From NCBI GenBank assembly GCA_003564135.1, contig PWNZ01000214.1:1-40253 (forward strand): 40,253 bases of DNA. Reading direction: 5' to 3'. A model generated the notes under the pieces. It saw only the letters and a program-made list of their open reading frames with translations, made no database searches and had not been told where the DNA came from. This document shows positions 15,002 through 40,253 of this stretch, in pieces. Made by a program: the position numbers and the translations under genes. Numbering within the stretch: the stretch's first letter is position 1; every line of letters starts with the position of its first letter. The stretch is from Candidatus Cloacimonadota bacterium (GTDB taxonomy: Bacteria; Cloacimonadota; Cloacimonadia; Cloacimonadales; PWNZ01).

Positions 15002-15433
15002 ATGAGCAGAATATTAGCGATTGACTACGGTGCAAGCAGGATAGGAATGGCTTTGAGTGATAGCTTAAAGATGTTTGCCGTTCCGTATAAAACTATCAGT
15101 AACGAAAATATTGAACAGACAATCTCTATTATATCAAACATAACTGTTGAACATGATATTGATACCGTGATTGTTGGGTATCCCACATTTTATGACGGCA
15201 CACCCAGTGATCAGACAAAGCAAGTATTAAGGTTTATTAAGACCTTAGAACGGAGGATAGCGGTTACTATCATACCATACGATGAAAGGTACTCCTCTAA
15301 GGAGGCTCAAGATATTATCAAGTCAAAAAGAAGGCGTAAAACCTCTTTAAGACATAAAGGCAGTGGTAAAAGTGAAGTTGACCGAGTAGCTGCTTCTATC
15401 ATTCTGCAAAATTATTTAGATAGCACCAACTGA
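15002..15433 (+). CDS. ruvX: Holliday junction resolvase-like RuvX/YqgF
   Basis: RNase H-fold nuclease of the YqgF/RuvX family, linked in other bacteria to pre-16S rRNA 5' end maturation and to junction resolution. The family's acidic active site is visible: AIDYGASRIG (first Asp, residue 7), TVIVGYP (about 57-63), PYDERYSS (about 98-105) and VDRVAASIIL near the C-terminus (last Asp). The length, 143 residues, is normal. The basic run KSKRRRKTSLRHKG (about 110-123) is a family trait in the loop before the last helix. No strong ribosome binding site is visible before the ATG. It is six bases from mltG, a common bacterial pairing, and appears to head the operon that runs to 21070. Confidence 0.92.
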   Translation: MSRILAIDYGASRIGMALSDSLKMFAVPYKTISNENIEQTISIISNITVEHDIDTVIVGYPTFYDGTPSDQTKQVLRFIKTLERRIAVTIIPYDERYSSKEAQDIIKSKRRRKTSLRHKGSGKSEVDRVAASIILQNYLDSTN

Positions 15434-15439
15434 TAAATT

Positions 15440-16447
15440 ATGAAATTAGTAATTGCCATAGTTATAGCGTTATTGTTGATAGTATCCTTAGTGACAGGGA
15501 CAATATACTTTCCCCTTAATAGTCCGGAAGCAATAGTAGAGATACCTCAAGGAGCGCCGGCAATCGTTATTGCTGAATCTTTGCATAATAAAGGGGTTAT
15601 AAGAAATAAGTTGCTGTTTAGACTCTATATTAAAGCTATAGGAGTTGAAAAATATTTGAGTTATGGAGAGTTTCACTTTGGCGAGAATAAGTCTCTTAAA
15701 GGTGTCGTTGACCAGTTACTGGAAGGAAGAGTCAAACTTCATCCCGTTACGATTATTGAAGGTTTGACTATCAGTCAGACTGCTGATCAGATTGCCAATG
15801 CCGGATTTATTGACAGGGATAGATTTAGTGCTTTATGTCGTGATTCGCTGCTTGCTGAAGAGCTAACGGGACTTCAAGTAGGGAGCTTAGAAGGGTTTCT
15901 CTATCCTGACACTTATATGCTGCCTGCAAGCGTTACAGAAGAATATGTTATAAGAACTATGGTTCAGAAGTTTTTCAGAAAGCTTTCAAGTATCGAAATC
16001 GACCACAAAGATAATGAGAATGATAGCAAAAGCATTCTGGATAACTACAAATACGACATGCTCAAATTGGCCTCTATTATAGAAAAAGAGGCTACTTTTA
16101 GTGACGAGAAGCCTTTAATTTCCGGTGTTTACCATAACCGCATGCGGATTGGTATGAGACTACAGGCTGATCCCACTGTAGCTTATGTGCTAAGTAAAGA
16201 CGATATTTTCAGGTCTGTTATCCTGTACAGAGATTTGGAGATAGATTCACCCTATAACACTTATCGAAAAAAAGGTTTACCACCGACGCCGATTTGCAGT
16301 CCGTCAATAGCTTCCATTGAAGCCGCATTTCATCCTGAAGAAACCGATTATCTGTTCTTTTTTGCTAACCGCTATGGCCGGCATATCTTTTCGCGAACTT
16401 ACCGCGATCATCTACAGGGACTAAGAGCACTTAGGTCGGGAAGTTAA
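15440..16447 (+). CDS. mltG: Endolytic murein transglycosylase MltG
   Basis: Cleaves nascent peptidoglycan strands and is thought to set glycan chain length. The 335-residue protein has one N-terminal transmembrane helix (residues 1-24) and a periplasmic YceG domain. A LysM-like subdomain (about 32-100) precedes the catalytic region, where ASIIEKEA (211-218) contains the expected catalytic Glu at E215. LQADPTVAYVL, SPYNTYRKKGLPPTPICSP and ADYLFFFANRYGRHIFS-type C-terminal motifs follow (here DYLFFFANRYGRHIFS). It is coupled to ruvX upstream and 28 bases from the first EIIA-like gene. Nothing is missing relative to the family. Confidence 0.95.
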   Translation: MKLVIAIVIALLLIVSLVTGTIYFPLNSPEAIVEIPQGAPAIVIAESLHNKGVIRNKLLFRLYIKAIGVEKYLSYGEFHFGENKSLKGVVDQLLEGRVKLHPVTIIEGLTISQTADQIANAGFIDRDRFSALCRDSLLAEELTGLQVGSLEGFLYPDTYMLPASVTEEYVIRTMVQKFFRKLSSIEIDHKDNENDSKSILDNYKYDMLKLASIIEKEATFSDEKPLISGVYHNRMRIGMRLQADPTVAYVLSKDDIFRSVILYRDLEIDSPYNTYRKKGLPPTPICSPSIASIEAAFHPEETDYLFFFANRYGRHIFSRTYRDHLQGLRALRSGS

Positions 16448-16475: not shown

Positions 16476-17303
16476 ATGCTTTCTCACTATACCAATAAAG
16501 AGCTTATTTTCATCAATCCAAAAGTTAATACAAAGGATGATCTTTTTGAAAAGATGGTGAATCATTTGTATAATTTGGATTATGTTTTAAACCGTAAAGA
16601 GTTTCTTAAAACACTAAAGAAGAGAGAAGATTTATCAAACACTGAGCTAATGCCCGGTATAGCACTACCTCATGCCCGGTCTGAGACTGTAGAGAAACTC
16701 TTTCTAAGTGTAGTAATCATTAATGAAGGTTTGGATTATGGAAATCCCGAAATGGGCAAGGTCAAAATAGTATTCTTCTTCGGGACATCAGATAAATATA
16801 ACAAAGAATATCTACAACTTCTTGCAAAATCGGCCAGGATATTGAAAAATGAAGTCTTTACTCAAAAATTAGTCGAAGCCAAAACAGCAGTACAAATAAT
16901 CGAGATACTCGAAGAGTTTGATAAGGATGAAGAAGATAGCCAAGAACCACGACATTTATATCAGTTATTAATTACTTTTCATAAATCAGATCGCTTAAAC
17001 GACGTGCTTTCTTCGCTTGTGGAAGTAGGGATAACTAATGCATCAGTGATTGAAGCGACCTCTTTGAGCAGTCATATATCGCATGATATTCCGGTGTTTG
17101 CCGGCCTCTATCATACTGAACCCGATAAGAATAAAATATCTCATCTTATAACCTGTCACGTCGAAGAGATGAAAACGGTCTATAGCTTGGTAAGATATCT
17201 CAAGGAAAGTGGGATTGATTTTCAAAAGAAAGGTACCGGTTTTATCCAAGTAATTGAAGCTCAAGAGATGATCGGTAACCACGAAGAGAATATCGATCTT
17301 TAA
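16476..17303 (+). CDS. EIIA (fructose/Ntr-type) domain fused to a PII-like domain, copy 1
   Basis: A 275-residue soluble regulator. Residues about 1-145 form a PTS EIIA domain of the fructose/nitrogen type with the phosphorylatable His in GIALPHARSE (H66). After an acidic linker (about 148-158), residues about 160-265 look like a PII/ferredoxin-fold domain (LLITFHKSDRLNDVLSSL, EVGITNASVIEATSL, then a final strand GTGFIQVIEA). This is close in layout to GlnB-like domains, which bind nucleotides. No sugar-specific EIIB or EIIC is present nearby, so a regulatory rather than sugar-uptake role is likely. AAAGGAG precedes the ATG. It lies 23 bases before the antiporter gene and has a paralogue after it. 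The control of the antiporter is inferred from context. Confidence 0.85.
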   Translation: MLSHYTNKELIFINPKVNTKDDLFEKMVNHLYNLDYVLNRKEFLKTLKKREDLSNTELMPGIALPHARSETVEKLFLSVVIINEGLDYGNPEMGKVKIVFFFGTSDKYNKEYLQLLAKSARILKNEVFTQKLVEAKTAVQIIEILEEFDKDEEDSQEPRHLYQLLITFHKSDRLNDVLSSLVEVGITNASVIEATSLSSHISHDIPVFAGLYHTEPDKNKISHLITCHVEEMKTVYSLVRYLKESGIDFQKKGTGFIQVIEAQEMIGNHEENIDL

Positions 17304-17326
17304 TTATAAAGGTTTAGCTTAAGCTT

Positions 17327-18496
17327 ATGCATTACACTACTCAGATAATTTTCAATCTTGCAATTATTCTTTTTGCGACAAATATTATTCGCGCCTTATC
17401 TACTAGGTATAAAGTACCACCCGTTATTGGCCTGTTGCTTATTGGTTTTGTGTTCGGGCCAAGCTTGTTTAATATTATTAAGCTTGACGTGACGATTAGT
17501 TGGATAGCTCAGGTAGGTGTGTTGTTTCTGATTTTCAGTGCCGGTGTACAGACTAACCTAAAGCGACTGAAGGACGATTCAAGGCAGGCAAGCTTACCTT
17601 CAGTCGGTGCTATTGTTTTTCCATTCGCTTGTGGTTATCTGCTGACTTTTCTGTTCACTTACAGTTTTGTCAGTAGCTTGGTGACAGGAACGATTTTTGC
17701 GGCAGCAAGTATAAGCATCCCCTTGATGACGCTGATTGAAATAGACAGGTTCAAAAGCACAGAAGGACGGTGCATAGTAAATGTTGCGATCATCAATGAC
17801 ATAGTCAGCATAGTATTGATATCGGTTTTGATGAGTGTATCAATTAACGAAGGCTCTATATACTATGTTGCCTTACTGCCTCTGCTGCAGATAGCTTTTT
17901 TCTTTTTTGTGACTTTTGTGATTGGAAAGTTCATTTTACTTAATATATATGCAAATTCTAAACGCTTAAATCTCGAGAACTCTCTACTTTCATTCAGCAT
18001 AGCCTTGATTCTGTTATATGCTTGGTTTGCCGAACTGTTGGGATTGGAAGCAATTATGGGCGCTTTGATCTGTGGCTTCTTTATAGGCCAGACAAGTGCT
18101 CGCCACTCAATAGATTCCGGTATAACTCAACTAGGGAAATCTTTTTTTGTTGATGTTTTTTTTGTTAGTATCGGGTTGGGAGTCAACTTAAGAGAGTTGA
18201 GTTTTAATCCCTTGTTCTTAGCCCTTTTTATAATGATAGCTATGATCAGTAAATTTGCCGGCAGTTTCACCGGAGCACTACTTACACGGTTTGATGTGAC
18301 CAGATCCCTCAGGATTGGTGTTGGGCTAATACCACGAGGAGAGGTGTCGTTAATTATCAGTGCTGCTGCTTTTAACAGAGGACTAATTTCTATGGAGATA
18401 CAGTCAATGGCTATACTTTTAGTCGTAATTAGTTCGATAATTGCTCCCTTTTTAATCAAATTGAGCTACACTTCAACCAAGAAAGAAACCTTCTGA
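17327..18496 (+). CDS. Cation:proton antiporter, CPA2-type, membrane part only
   Basis: Exchanges Na+ or K+ for protons across the inner membrane. The 389-residue protein is nearly all membrane helices (about 11-13). Family motifs include PPVIGLLLIGFVFGPS (about 31-46), VLFLIFSAGVQTNLKRL, a helix with Asn-Asp (VAIINDIVSIVL) at the place of the ion-binding pair, GLEAIMGALICGFFIG and GLIPRGEVSLIISAAAF. Unlike KefB/KefC it stops after the last helix and has no RCK/TrkA domain, so any cytosolic control must come in trans. It is enclosed by two EIIA+PII-like genes at 23 and 13 bases, which makes them the obvious candidates for its control. Ion specificity cannot be told. Confidence 0.88.
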   Translation: MHYTTQIIFNLAIILFATNIIRALSTRYKVPPVIGLLLIGFVFGPSLFNIIKLDVTISWIAQVGVLFLIFSAGVQTNLKRLKDDSRQASLPSVGAIVFPFACGYLLTFLFTYSFVSSLVTGTIFAAASISIPLMTLIEIDRFKSTEGRCIVNVAIINDIVSIVLISVLMSVSINEGSIYYVALLPLLQIAFFFFVTFVIGKFILLNIYANSKRLNLENSLLSFSIALILLYAWFAELLGLEAIMGALICGFFIGQTSARHSIDSGITQLGKSFFVDVFFVSIGLGVNLRELSFNPLFLALFIMIAMISKFAGSFTGALLTRFDVTRSLRIGVGLIPRGEVSLIISAAAFNRGLISMEIQSMAILLVVISSIIAPFLIKLSYTSTKKETF

Positions 18497-18509
18497 CAAG
18501 GGAATTGAG

Positions 18510-19325
18510 ATGTTGAAAGATTATCTAAAAAAAGATCTGATATTTATAGACCCTGAAGTGAAAGGGAAAAAAGAACTCTTTAAATACCTATCTAATGAAT
18601 TAGAAAAAAACGGGATAGTTAAAAGTAAGAAGCAGTTTTTTAGCTCATTAGTCAAACGTGAAGAATTAGGGAACACAGAATTACAGCCGAACATCGCTAT
18701 CCCCCATGCTCATTGCTCGACTGTTAATAAGCTTTTTTTATCTATCGTTGTATCAAAAAAAGGCATAGAATATGGAAAGGATAACTTAGGGCCGGTAAAA
18801 CTGCTTTTTTTAGTTGGTTGTTCATCTGCTAGCCCCCGGGAATATATCAAGCTTTTAGCTACGGTTGCCCGCATTACCAAGATACCGGAAATAATTGACC
18901 GCATGACATCTTGTACACAGCCGGAGGATGTTTTAGCTATACTGAGCGAGCATGATTTATATGAAAGCCCACTTTATAAGAAAGAGCATTTCATGATGAA
19001 GGTTACCCTTTACAAAAATGATATACTTAGCGATGTATTGGCTGCTCTGATAGAATTAGGAGTTAACAATGCTTCGGTAGTTGCTTCAACCTCATTGGCA
19101 CAACTAATTTCTTCCAATATCCCTGTTTTTGCAGGACTTAAATTGTATAGCATAGCTGATGATGTCAGAACAAGCACAGTTTTTGCTATTATTTCCGATG
19201 AAACCACAGCCGGTAAATTATACTCGATATTAAAGGATGAAGGTGTTGATTTAGAACAGGCTGGGAATGGATATATAAAGACCTTCAAAGTGAAAGAAGT
19301 TATAGGACATTCCGACGAATTATAA
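18510..19325 (+). CDS. EIIA (fructose/Ntr-type) domain fused to a PII-like domain, copy 2
   Basis: A 271-residue paralogue of the protein at 16476, collinear over its whole length. The EIIA half has the phospho-His at the identical position (H66 in NIAIPHAHCS), and the PII-like half starts at about 155 (MKVTLYKNDILSDVLAAL, ELGVNNASVVASTSL) and ends GNGYIKTFKVKEVIG. Residues differ mostly at surfaces, so the two may form a heteromeric or opposed pair. The ATG is 13 bases after the antiporter stop and the histidine phosphatase gene begins 17 bases downstream. The duplication around one antiporter looks like a tandem gene duplication with retention, not a recent copy, because the two are clearly diverged. 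Confidence 0.85.
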   Translation: MLKDYLKKDLIFIDPEVKGKKELFKYLSNELEKNGIVKSKKQFFSSLVKREELGNTELQPNIAIPHAHCSTVNKLFLSIVVSKKGIEYGKDNLGPVKLLFLVGCSSASPREYIKLLATVARITKIPEIIDRMTSCTQPEDVLAILSEHDLYESPLYKKEHFMMKVTLYKNDILSDVLAALIELGVNNASVVASTSLAQLISSNIPVFAGLKLYSIADDVRTSTVFAIISDETTAGKLYSILKDEGVDLEQAGNGYIKTFKVKEVIGHSDEL

Positions 19326-19342
19326 AAAGACTACACTATTAC

Positions 19343-19918
19343 ATGCAAGCATTATTCCTCAGGCACGGGACGGCATCTCATCTTCTGGAAGACTATAGGC
19401 GAAAGCTTACCTATGATCAGTTTTGTGATTTATTGGAAGATTGGGTACATGCTTCACTGACACCTGAAGGTGTTGAGGAAATAAAATCGGGCGCTAAGAA
19501 GTTCACTAATAAAAAGTATCGACTATTTTATAGCCCACTGATCCGGACTAAGCAGACGGCTAAATCTTTAGTAGAAATAGCAAAGCCCATTACGCAGCAT
19601 GAGTTGGCTGCTTTATCCGAAATATTTATCTATCCACCCGGTTTCTCAAAAAAGATTAAGATTTCTATTGGAGTCTGGATATTCTTGTGTATCTTCAAAT
19701 CTATCTATACTTTGAAGATTATTAGGTATGTAAAAGAGGCCAGACATATAATGAAGGTGATTAAAAAATATGGAGATGACGCTATAGTTGTCAGCCACCA
19801 AGCCCGCATTTTAACCATAATTATTAGTTGCCTTATAAGTCCTAAGTGGAGAATCTTAAAAATAGATGTTCGTCCAGCCGGCTATACAATAGTAGAATCT
19901 GATAAAAGTTATCAATAA
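19343..19918 (+). CDS. Histidine phosphatase superfamily protein (SixA/PGAM-like)
   Basis: A 191-residue phosphatase of the RHG superfamily. The catalytic core is visible: ALFLRHGTA (R7, H8, G9), SPLIRTKQTA (R68) and IVVSHQARI (H152, with Ser in place of the usual Gly). The acid/base loop is likely near the ELAALSEI segment (about 87-94). A hydrophobic stretch (SIGVWIFLCIFKSIYTL, about 108-124) lies in the helical insert and is unusual for a soluble enzyme, so membrane contact is possible. Relatives act on phosphohistidine (SixA), small phosphometabolites or phosphoproteins. It directly follows the second EIIA-like gene, and removal of phosphate from those His residues is an attractive but untested role. 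Confidence 0.8.
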   Translation: MQALFLRHGTASHLLEDYRRKLTYDQFCDLLEDWVHASLTPEGVEEIKSGAKKFTNKKYRLFYSPLIRTKQTAKSLVEIAKPITQHELAALSEIFIYPPGFSKKIKISIGVWIFLCIFKSIYTLKIIRYVKEARHIMKVIKKYGDDAIVVSHQARILTIIISCLISPKWRILKIDVRPAGYTIVESDKSYQ

Positions 19919-36915: not shown

Positions 36916-39900
36916 ATGATAAAAAAAATAACGATAACAATGTTGATCATGTTCATGACAGGAATGATACAATTAGCAGCCATTCAAAGAGCTGACGACT
37001 CTTTAACCGAAGTGCTTGAATCGATATCATACCAAGATGAGCAGATACCCGTTTATATACTGTTGAAAGATCAATATGATGCTCAGGAATTGTATTATGA
37101 AGTAAAAAGGTTGCCGCTTAGTGAGAGGAGACAGATGACTATCAATACTCTCAGAGAACACAGTGATCAAAGCCAATTCTCGCTACGAAACACAGTGCAG
37201 CAATTGGAGTCAGATAATCAGGCTGATAATGTCAGATATTACTGGATAGTTAACATGATTGCTTTAAGCGTTTCTTACGAGGCATTACAAATCATAGATA
37301 GTCATGAAGAGATCGAAACCATAGTTTATGACAGCGAGCAGATAGTTCTGTTTCCCGATCCGGACGAAAAAGAAAGGGCTCTGCGGAGCGATGATGTCAG
37401 GCAAAAAACGGTTTACCAGGATCGCAATGTAGCTGCTAATGTTAATCGAATTAGGGCTCCGGAGATCTGGGATCAAGGTTATAGAGGAGAAGGTATTACC
37501 GTAGCTGTACTCGATACCGGTGTTAACTATAATCATCGTGACATAGTGAACAATATGTGGACGCACGTCGATTATCCCAATCATGGATATAATTTCGTAG
37601 GTAACAACAAAGACCCCATGGACAATAATAGTCATGGAACTCATTGTGCCGGGACTGTGGCCGGCGATGGAACGAGCGGCACAATCACCGGTGTGGCAAC
37701 TAATGCGTCAATAATGGCAGTCAAAGTTTTAGCTGATAATGGTGGAGCTCAATTGCCTCATACTGTCAGTGGTATTCAGTTTGCTGTTGAAAACGGTGCT
37801 GACGTTCTTAGTATGTCATTCGGTTGGAGATCCGCACCTGCGAATATAAAGAATACTTTAAGAACCGCTATGAATAACGTCCTTTCGGCGGGGGGTGTTG
37901 CTAGCGTAGCAATTGGTAATTTCGGTAGGCAGCAGAACCAATATCCACCTCCTAATAATGTGGGTACACCGGGAAGCTGTCCTGCTCCATGGTTACATCC
38001 TGATCAGACTTTAAGAGGTGGCTTAAGTTCGGTTATATCTGTAGGTGCAACCGATAATAACGATAGGATAGCCAACTTCTCATCAAGGGGCCCGGTGACC
38101 TGGTCTAATGTTAATCCTTTCAACGACTATGCCCATAATCCGGGTATGGGATTGATAGTTCCCGATGTAGTAGCACCGGGAGTTGATGTGGTTTCATTGA
38201 ACCACAACAATAATACAGGTTATACGCCAAAAAGCGGTACTTCGATGGCAGCACCGGCAGTGGCAGGAATAATTGCATTGATGCTTTCCAAAGAAGCTGA
38301 ATTGACTCCTGAGGAGATTTCCCAAATTTTAGAAGAGACGACAGTGGCTGCTCCCGACACTAAAAATAATACTTTTGGTTCAGGCCGGGCAGATGCTTAC
38401 AATGCTGTTGAAGAAGTTGTAGGCACAACTCCACCAAATCAAGCTATCCGCCCCACACCACAAGTTGGAGCACAGTTTATTGGCAGCCGACCGACTTTAG
38501 AGTGGTCAAATGGTGGTGGTGCCCGCTCTTATCGTGTGTATATAGGTACCGACAATCCTCCCTCTAATACAGTTGCAGGTGACAATACTGATGACAGAGA
38601 TTATACTTTAACCGTCGATCTAGAGCCACAGCAGACTTATTATTGGCGGATCGATTCGGTCAATGATAATGGAGTCACCGCAGGTGAAGTATGGCATTTT
38701 GAGACTAGTGTTCCCCATGGTGTTAGGGATCCTGAGCCATCTGATGGTGCCGACGATATACGACTTTTACCACTGTTACGCTGGATAGAACAGGGCGGTG
38801 CTGATAGTTATAGGGTTTATGTAGGCACTGATAATCCCCCGACTAATTTTTTGAATGGGGTAGAGGCAGCTGAAACCAGCTATCATTTGGAACTGAGCTT
38901 AGATAGCACAACACTATATTACTGGCGAGTTGATGCCATCAATGTTAACGGAGTAGCGGAAGGTGAGGTTTGGAGTTTCACCACCGGCCAATCTGCAGGT
39001 GAAACGTTTGCGAGCGGCGATTTTTCCGCTAATCCTTGGGATCTTTCTTATACCGGTGATATAGAGGCTTATTGGCATATTGACGACACGGAACGTTTTA
39101 GTGGTGATTATTCTGCTCGTGCGGGTCATATAGTTAATAATGCAACAACAACTATAGCCATTACCTTAGAGATATATGAGTCTGGTAGTATTTCTTTTGC
39201 AAGAAAGGTTTATTCAGCTTCTAACCATCATTTGACCTTTTATATTGATAATAACAACATCGCCAGTTGGTCTGGTGATCATGACTGGGATGAGGTAACC
39301 TTTGATGTCAGTCCCGGTATTCGTACATTCAGGTGGGTGTACGATAAGACCCGTCCTGACTATCTTGAGGATGATGGAGCGTGGATTGATCACATCACAT
39401 TTCCTTACTTAGGTGTTCCCTCACCGCAGCTCAGTCCGCCTATTAATATTTCTTCTGAGCTAGCTTATGATCGTATCAATCTAAGCTGGGAGTTGCCATT
39501 AGAACGTCCGGTAATCTTAGGGCATAATATCTACCGCTCATTTGACGGTGAAGACTTTGAAAAAATTAATGAACGAATTTACCGGCGCAACTATTTCCAT
39601 GATGATTTAACTACTACAGGCACTTACCACTACTATGTAACTTCACTATTTGAGAATGGAGAATCGGGTCCCTCTGAGACAGTATCTGTTAATGTTGGAG
39701 AGGCTGTAGCAGATCCGGAGTTTTCTCATGCTGAGGGTGAGTATCCTGAAGGGTTTGAGCTGTCGATTGATATAGCAGATGAAGAGTCGGTTATTTATTA
39801 CACAATCGATGGCACTGAGCCTGATCCGGAGGCTATTTTATACGATGGCGTCATTGATATAACCGAGTCCACGCTTGTACGGGCTCAAGGTTATAAACTG

Positions 39901-40253
39901 GGTCATTTACCCAGCGACGTGGTAGAAGCGGATTATGTTATCAGTTTGGCATTGGAAGATGAAACCCATACTGTCGGCAGTGAAATAAGAGTATATCCCA
40001 ATCCTTTGCTGTCCCAAGGTAATGTACGTATCGCCTATAGTTTAGGCCCTGCTCAGGATGTCTCAATCGGCATCTACAATATTAAAGGTCAGTTAGTCAG
40101 GTCTTTCGATATGAGAGAAGCTGGGGCAGGTAATAATTCCTTAGTCTGGGATATGAGGGATGAACGCGGCAGTAAGGTGGGAACAGGTATCTATCTGATA
40201 AATGTTCGGACACTAGACCGACAAGAAACTAAGAGATTAATGATAATGAAATA
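36916..40253 (+). CDS. Secreted subtilisin-like (S8) protease with C-terminal sorting domain
   Basis: A 1112-residue secreted serine protease; the final codon lies across the window edge (last bases TA). A signal peptide (MIKKITITMLIMFMTGMIQL), an I9-like propeptide (to about 150) and an S8 domain (about 175-505) come first. The triad is D200 (VAVLDTGV), H240 (NNSHGTHCAG) and S443 (SGTSMAAPAVAG), with oxyanion Asn N335. Next are two tandem fibronectin-III-like repeats (about 510-695, both with YRVYIGTDNPP-type and YYWRIDSVN-type phrases), a jelly-roll domain (about 697-835), another Fn3 (about 840-930), a chitobiase/HEX C-terminal-type domain with YYTIDGTEPDP, and a FlgD/T9SS-like tail: VYPNPL, IYNIKGQLVRSFD, GSKVGTGIYLINV. 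Such tails direct export and surface attachment in Bacteroidota and relatives. TTGGAG precedes the ATG. Confidence 0.92.
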   Translation, partial: MIKKITITMLIMFMTGMIQLAAIQRADDSLTEVLESISYQDEQIPVYILLKDQYDAQELYYEVKRLPLSERRQMTINTLREHSDQSQFSLRNTVQQLESDNQADNVRYYWIVNMIALSVSYEALQIIDSHEEIETIVYDSEQIVLFPDPDEKERALRSDDVRQKTVYQDRNVAANVNRIRAPEIWDQGYRGEGITVAVLDTGVNYNHRDIVNNMWTHVDYPNHGYNFVGNNKDPMDNNSHGTHCAGTVAGDGTSGTITGVATNASIMAVKVLADNGGAQLPHTVSGIQFAVENGADVLSMSFGWRSAPANIKNTLRTAMNNVLSAGGVASVAIGNFGRQQNQYPPPNNVGTPGSCPAPWLHPDQTLRGGLSSVISVGATDNNDRIANFSSRGPVTWSNVNPFNDYAHNPGMGLIVPDVVAPGVDVVSLNHNNNTGYTPKSGTSMAAPAVAGIIALMLSKEAELTPEEISQILEETTVAAPDTKNNTFGSGRADAYNAVEEVVGTTPPNQAIRPTPQVGAQFIGSRPTLEWSNGGGARSYRVYIGTDNPPSNTVAGDNTDDRDYTLTVDLEPQQTYYWRIDSVNDNGVTAGEVWHFETSVPHGVRDPEPSDGADDIRLLPLLRWIEQGGADSYRVYVGTDNPPTNFLNGVEAAETSYHLELSLDSTTLYYWRVDAINVNGVAEGEVWSFTTGQSAGETFASGDFSANPWDLSYTGDIEAYWHIDDTERFSGDYSARAGHIVNNATTTIAITLEIYESGSISFARKVYSASNHHLTFYIDNNNIASWSGDHDWDEVTFDVSPGIRTFRWVYDKTRPDYLEDDGAWIDHITFPYLGVPSPQLSPPINISSELAYDRINLSWELPLERPVILGHNIYRSFDGEDFEKINERIYRRNYFHDDLTTTGTYHYYVTSLFENGESGPSETVSVNVGEAVADPEFSHAEGEYPEGFELSIDIADEESVIYYTIDGTEPDPEAILYDGVIDITESTLVRAQGYKLGHLPSDVVEADYVISLALEDETHTVGSEIRVYPNPLLSQGNVRIAYSLGPAQDVSIGIYNIKGQLVRSFDMREAGAGNNSLVWDMRDERGSKVGTGIYLINVRTLDRQETKRLMIMK

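Follow-up and report, generated by a model that had tools for sequence, protein, structure and literature searches.

Organization of the locus

We analysed a stretch of 40,253 nucleotides from a Candidatus Cloacimonadota bacterium (contig PWNZ01000214.1; hereafter the window). The list of open reading frames places four adjacent, co-directional genes at positions 16476-19918, separated by 23, 13 and 17 bases, in agreement with the earlier note, which had described four such genes with gaps of 13-23 bases. They follow the genes for RuvX and MltG; the six genes share a strand and are 6-28 bases apart:

15002..15433, + strand: RuvX; conserved context 5' of EIIA–PII-like protein 1, outside the proposed switch
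15440..16447, + strand: MltG; conserved context 5' of EIIA–PII-like protein 1, outside the proposed switch
16476..17303, + strand: EIIA–PII-like protein 1, 275 aa; EIIA domain at about residues 1-148, PII-like domain at about 158-275; H66 codon at 16671-16673
17327..18496, + strand: NapA-like CPA2 cation/proton antiporter, 389 aa, without RCK domain; N157-D158 codons at 17795-17800, K309 codon at 18251-18253
18510..19325, + strand: EIIA–PII-like protein 2, 271 aa, the faster-evolving paralogue of protein 1; H66 codon at 18705-18707
19343..19918, + strand: branch-1 histidine phosphatase (RHG), 191 aa; catalytic residues kept

Promoter and terminator scans of the window gave signals close to shuffle levels. 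At the far end of the window, a large open-ended reading frame (36916-40253) resembles long proteins found at many Cloacimonadota loci and perhaps encodes a surface protein.

Domains of the flanking proteins

Both proteins flanking the antiporter passed the Pfam EIIA_2 profile PF00359, with 113.4 and 112.7 bits (cut-off 27). The NCBIfam equivalog model for PtsN/EIIA-Ntr, TIGR01419, was missed by both (37.9 and 47.7 bits, cut-off 138.7). An alignment of 30 members of the EIIA–PII family shows no variation at H66, R50, E51 or T56, which bears out the intact H66 initially described for each of the two paralogous proteins. In Foldseek searches, the top match of the AlphaFold2 model of EIIA–PII (pLDDT 86.7) was EIIA-Ntr 2a0j (E = 4.5e-11), and the PII structure 1hwu_B was matched as well (E = 2.6e-5, probability 1.00). 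The pTM of the model was 0.56, and the relative placement of the two domains carries no confidence.

The Pfam PII profile, PF00543, did not match either window fusion protein, while stand-alone PII-like relatives passed it with 32.9 and 31.2 bits (cut-off 25). Judged by the modelled fold together with these relatives, the C-terminal domain of both flanking proteins is PII-like. We aligned one stand-alone relative (locus L150) with solved PII chains. The canonical GDGK aligned to GTGL, so that the B-loop lysine is not kept, and the canonical QKGHTEIYRGAEY aligned to ILAHDIPIFAGLRHL, with loss of the T-loop residues. As this relative has lost the loop residues that serve ATP and 2-oxoglutarate in canonical PII, the sequence does not reveal the ligand, and the nucleotide sensing proposed in the earlier note is a putative role. 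Two further candidates were set aside: the Borrelia 'PII-like' protein (PMC6516651) is an unrelated DUF2179 protein, and a suspected PII-like N-terminus in a 268-aa EIIA protein (L143) received no profile support.

Two Spirochaetes (L125:4509-4982 and L126:4497-4982) and one Cloacimonadota family (L070:3248-3715) have a gene for a small protein between those for the antiporter and EIIA–PII. Pfam assigns two CBS domains to the Cloacimonadota protein, and the Spirochaete counterparts look alike. The CBS-domain protein of the Cloacimonadota family hints further at control by nucleotides.

The antiporter and its ion site

The antiporter reached 193.8 bits with PF00999 (cut-off 26.2), and Pfam detected no TrkA/RCK domain in it. 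Among solved structures the closest is NapA (E = 1e-36). All of its roughly 385 residues aligned, and it likewise consists of the antiporter domain alone. The absence of RCK, reported in the earlier note as a departure from the usual architecture, is thus real but not unusual.

In this alignment, N157-D158 corresponds to NapA D156-D157 and K309 to K305. The electrogenic NapA type is defined by D-D at positions 6 and 7 of the CPA motif; with N157-D158, the window antiporter does not belong to it. The D-D pair was found in 14 of the 16 aligned antiporters, and N-D only in the window protein and in copy a of a sister genome (G001). The same two proteins carry AAASI in the unwound helix, in place of the ATSV or ATSI of the others. 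A model of the CPA superfamily expects CPA2 members without an acidic residue at motif position 6 to be electroneutral (PMC6181914). Because it has N-D where all but one of the sampled relatives have D-D, the window antiporter is predicted to be electroneutral, exchanging one cation per proton. The single substitution D163N inactivates E. coli NhaA (PMC6181914), so the accompanying changes matter for this prediction. According to the trees, the antiporter was duplicated within the family of the window, and the N-D change would most simply have arisen on the branch leading to copy a. The second antiporter of the sister genome (copy b, L045:7209-8411) lies after EIIA–PII 2 and has the D-D site.

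Conservation of the antiporter and EIIA–PII pair

We compared 39 Cloacimonadota loci taken from named genomes. In 37 of them the antiporter lies directly 5' of EIIA–PII; the other two are at contig edges. The phosphatase is present at 3 of the 39. The conserved unit is the antiporter with EIIA–PII and not the whole four-gene set: the order first proposed as a unit is shared by relatives as far as this pair is concerned, but does not extend to the phosphatase. Surrounding neighbourhoods differ, which indicates that the linkage survives relocation. A second, distant antiporter subfamily (about 412 aa, about 20% identity) is paired elsewhere in Cloacimonadota genomes with its own EIIA–PII-like protein of about 271 aa (L071, L072 and L074-L077). 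A 568-aa reading frame at L086 was considered as a fusion of antiporter, EIIA and PII; its antiporter part ends at about residue 260 and unrelated residues follow, and we took it as an assembly or frameshift artefact.

Most Cloacimonadota loci carry a single EIIA–PII gene, and the double copy is confined to two families, that of the window and a sister to it. In the tree, the first copies all fall together (100/97), as do the second copies (99/99), indicating one duplication that preceded the separation of the two families. Branches are longer for the second copies, whose EIIA domains share 42% identity, compared with 68% among first copies.

Outside the phylum, EIIA and PII-like domains are usually encoded by separate neighbouring genes accompanied by one or two antiporters. 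Such loci were found in Latescibacterota, WOR-3, Aminicenantes, Gemmatimonadota, Spirochaetes and Endomicrobiales, among other groups. An antiporter was present at 19 of the 25 loci with both EIIA and PII-like genes versus 2 of the 12 with EIIA only (Fisher p = 0.001, an indicative value, as the loci were retrieved through their similarity to the window family, are not independent samples and in several cases share a phylum). No antiporter was in view at the remaining six EIIA and PII-like loci, two of which have a CNNM transporter instead. In Deferribacteres, a CNNM/CBS/CorC_HlyC transporter gene lies directly 5' of the EIIA and PII-like genes (L153:3321-4592 and L158:120-1421). A literature search, which had most subscription papers outside its reach, found no paper joining EIIA, PII and antiporter gene neighbourhoods.

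The PTS chain of the genome

EI and HPr, the phosphodonors on which the original model depended, are encoded in the window genome and in every relative searched (40 genomes in all), and an HPr kinase gene adjoins the HPr gene. Profile searches of the genome, which is 92% complete, found no EIIC (PF02378) and no EIIB (PF02302). Because neither family was found, the PTS is likely regulatory rather than dedicated to sugar uptake, against which the earlier note had argued from the immediate neighbourhood. The window genome encodes six EIIA_2 domains. One belongs to a 621-aa amino-acid permease fused to EIIA_2 (L080:14343-16208, G000:C73), another link between a transporter and EIIA, and one to a 219-aa HTH_17–EIIA_2 protein (L079:6412-7071, G000:C232).

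Proposed control of the antiporter

In E. coli, the K+/H+ antiporter YcgO is inhibited by the binding of unphosphorylated PtsN, which becomes weaker when PtsN is phosphorylated (PMC11808508). By analogy, we consider it fairly probable that the EIIA–PII-like proteins control the adjacent antiporter, the unphosphorylated form being inhibitory, with PTS phosphorylation of H66 as one input and the PII-like domain as another. The EI–HPr chain would phosphorylate His66, with HPr gated by HPr kinase, and the phosphorylation would report the PEP/pyruvate and ATP status of the cell. EIIA–PII would bind the cytoplasmic face of the antiporter's membrane domain, perhaps through its PII-like part, and, following PtsN–YcgO, the unphosphorylated protein would most likely inhibit. 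YcgO binds PtsN through its C-terminal CorC domain (PMC11808508); this domain is absent from the window antiporter, so the docking site must differ. The PII-like domain would add a second input and is probably oligomeric and ligand-binding. EIIA–PII 2, which diverges faster with His66 kept, may give a second set-point. Of the control scheme first put forward, in which the EIIA/PII-like proteins set the antiporter and the phosphatase resets it, the first half gains from genetic coupling across phyla, whereas the reset step finds no support.

Gene neighbourhood alone can reflect shared regulation only, and EIIA–PII might be co-transcribed with the antiporter for ion or pH homeostasis while acting, without contact, on something else, for instance a kinase or a metabolic enzyme. 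The trimeric state of canonical PII proteins does not match the dimeric state of CPA antiporters, a difference in symmetry that counts against contact between EIIA–PII and the antiporter. Some PII-like genes stand alone, with no antiporter (L147, L150 and L156), or lie beside the CNNM transporters described above, and more than one target of EIIA-Ntr proteins is known, several having been described (PMC13104625). We nevertheless regard this alternative as rather unlikely, given that antiporters from two distant subfamilies are repeatedly paired with EIIA–PII at different genomic places and that EIIA–antiporter binding is established in E. coli.

A different possibility is that EIIA–PII 2 is a leftover from an ancestor with two sets of antiporter and EIIA–PII, of which the window lineage lost one antiporter. 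The sister genome with two antiporters has the order expected of such an ancestor (EIIA–PII 1, antiporter a with N-D, EIIA–PII 2, antiporter b with D-D), and a search of the window genome for the D-D copy b found none. The sister family (G006 and G014), however, has two EIIA–PII genes around a single antiporter, with a D-D site in G014; the trees place the EIIA–PII duplication earlier than that of the antiporter, and H66 is still kept in EIIA–PII 2. The reading of EIIA–PII 2 as a leftover appears improbable.

The adjacent histidine phosphatase

The gene after EIIA–PII 2 encodes an RHG histidine phosphatase, as first reported: it passed PF00300 (35.9 bits, cut-off 21.7), and its RHG motif, second Arg, Glu and second His are invariant in four orthologues. 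The SixA profile TIGR00249 was missed, with a partial match of 16.3 bits (cut-off 74.5). A PDB sequence search with the phosphatase returned no match, and an AlphaFold2 model built from four sequences had a pLDDT of 53.5. The phosphatase is present in 8 of 59 relatives. In three of these it follows RuvX–MltG directly, with neither EIIA–PII nor antiporter at the locus, and its co-occurrence with EIIA–PII does not exceed chance (Fisher p = 0.46). On this pattern it belongs to the RuvX–MltG neighbourhood and is most likely a bystander to the switch.

A four-gene phosphorelay, in which the EIIA–PII proteins set the antiporter and the phosphatase strips the phosphate from H66 to reset it, is accordingly very doubtful: the four window genes are adjacent and co-directional, the catalytic residues are kept and the order of EIIA–PII, antiporter, EIIA–PII and phosphatase is seen again in two genomes of one sister family, but scarcity at the antiporter loci, chance-level co-occurrence, the RuvX–MltG association and the missed SixA cut-off all stand against it. 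A role on H66 confined to the two families with the phosphatase behind a bracketed antiporter is conceivable.

Wider implications

The recurrence of antiporter and EIIA/PII-like sets across phyla suggests an uncharacterised control of ion balance, in a little-known phylum and beyond it, that would read the energy state of the cell through the phosphotransfer chain. More tentatively, antiporters of several phyla may share a widespread, so far undescribed ion-homeostasis switch, in which paired EIIA and PII-like inputs join PTS phosphorylation, from a purely regulatory PTS, with a small-molecule signal. This signal is possibly c-di-AMP, as a DAC-domain protein is present. If true, EIIA control of antiporters would extend from one case in E. 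coli to a module conserved in several phyla, a PII-family sensor would be added to the EIIA–antiporter switch, and PTS chains without a sugar permease would gain a target function. The concrete prediction is that antiport activity changes with EIIA phosphorylation.

Comparison with known systems

In GlnK–AmtB and SbtB–SbtA, a PII-family protein controls the transporter encoded with it. The window locus resembles them in having a PII-family protein encoded beside a transporter, with control proposed here. It differs in that the PII-like domain is fused to EIIA, the transporter is a cation/proton antiporter, and a stand-alone relative of the PII-like domain lacks the canonical PII ligand residues.

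The window antiporter shares with Thermus thermophilus NapA a similar length, the lysine (K305 in NapA, K309 here) and the lack of RCK, whereas NapA has D156-D157 and ATSV-type residues where the window protein has N157-D158 and AAASI. KefB and KefC, described as electroneutral (PMC11150392), are CPA2 proteins in which a non-acidic residue likewise precedes the essential Asp (Q-D); they have a lysine as well (K307). In contrast to the window antiporter, KefC carries RCK domains at its C-terminus, which glutathione adducts gate, and the match between them is much weaker (E = 7e-14).

The closest functional parallel to the proposed control is PtsN–YcgO/CvrA of E. coli (PMC11808508). Both involve an EIIA-fold protein; its phosphorylation by a PTS chain and its direct binding to the antiporter are established there and proposed here. 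YcgO is a CPA1 protein with RCK and CorC domains, whereas the window antiporter is NapA-like and has no cytoplasmic domain; the window EIIA, for its part, forms one protein with a PII-like domain, has its gene beside that of the antiporter and is present in two copies.
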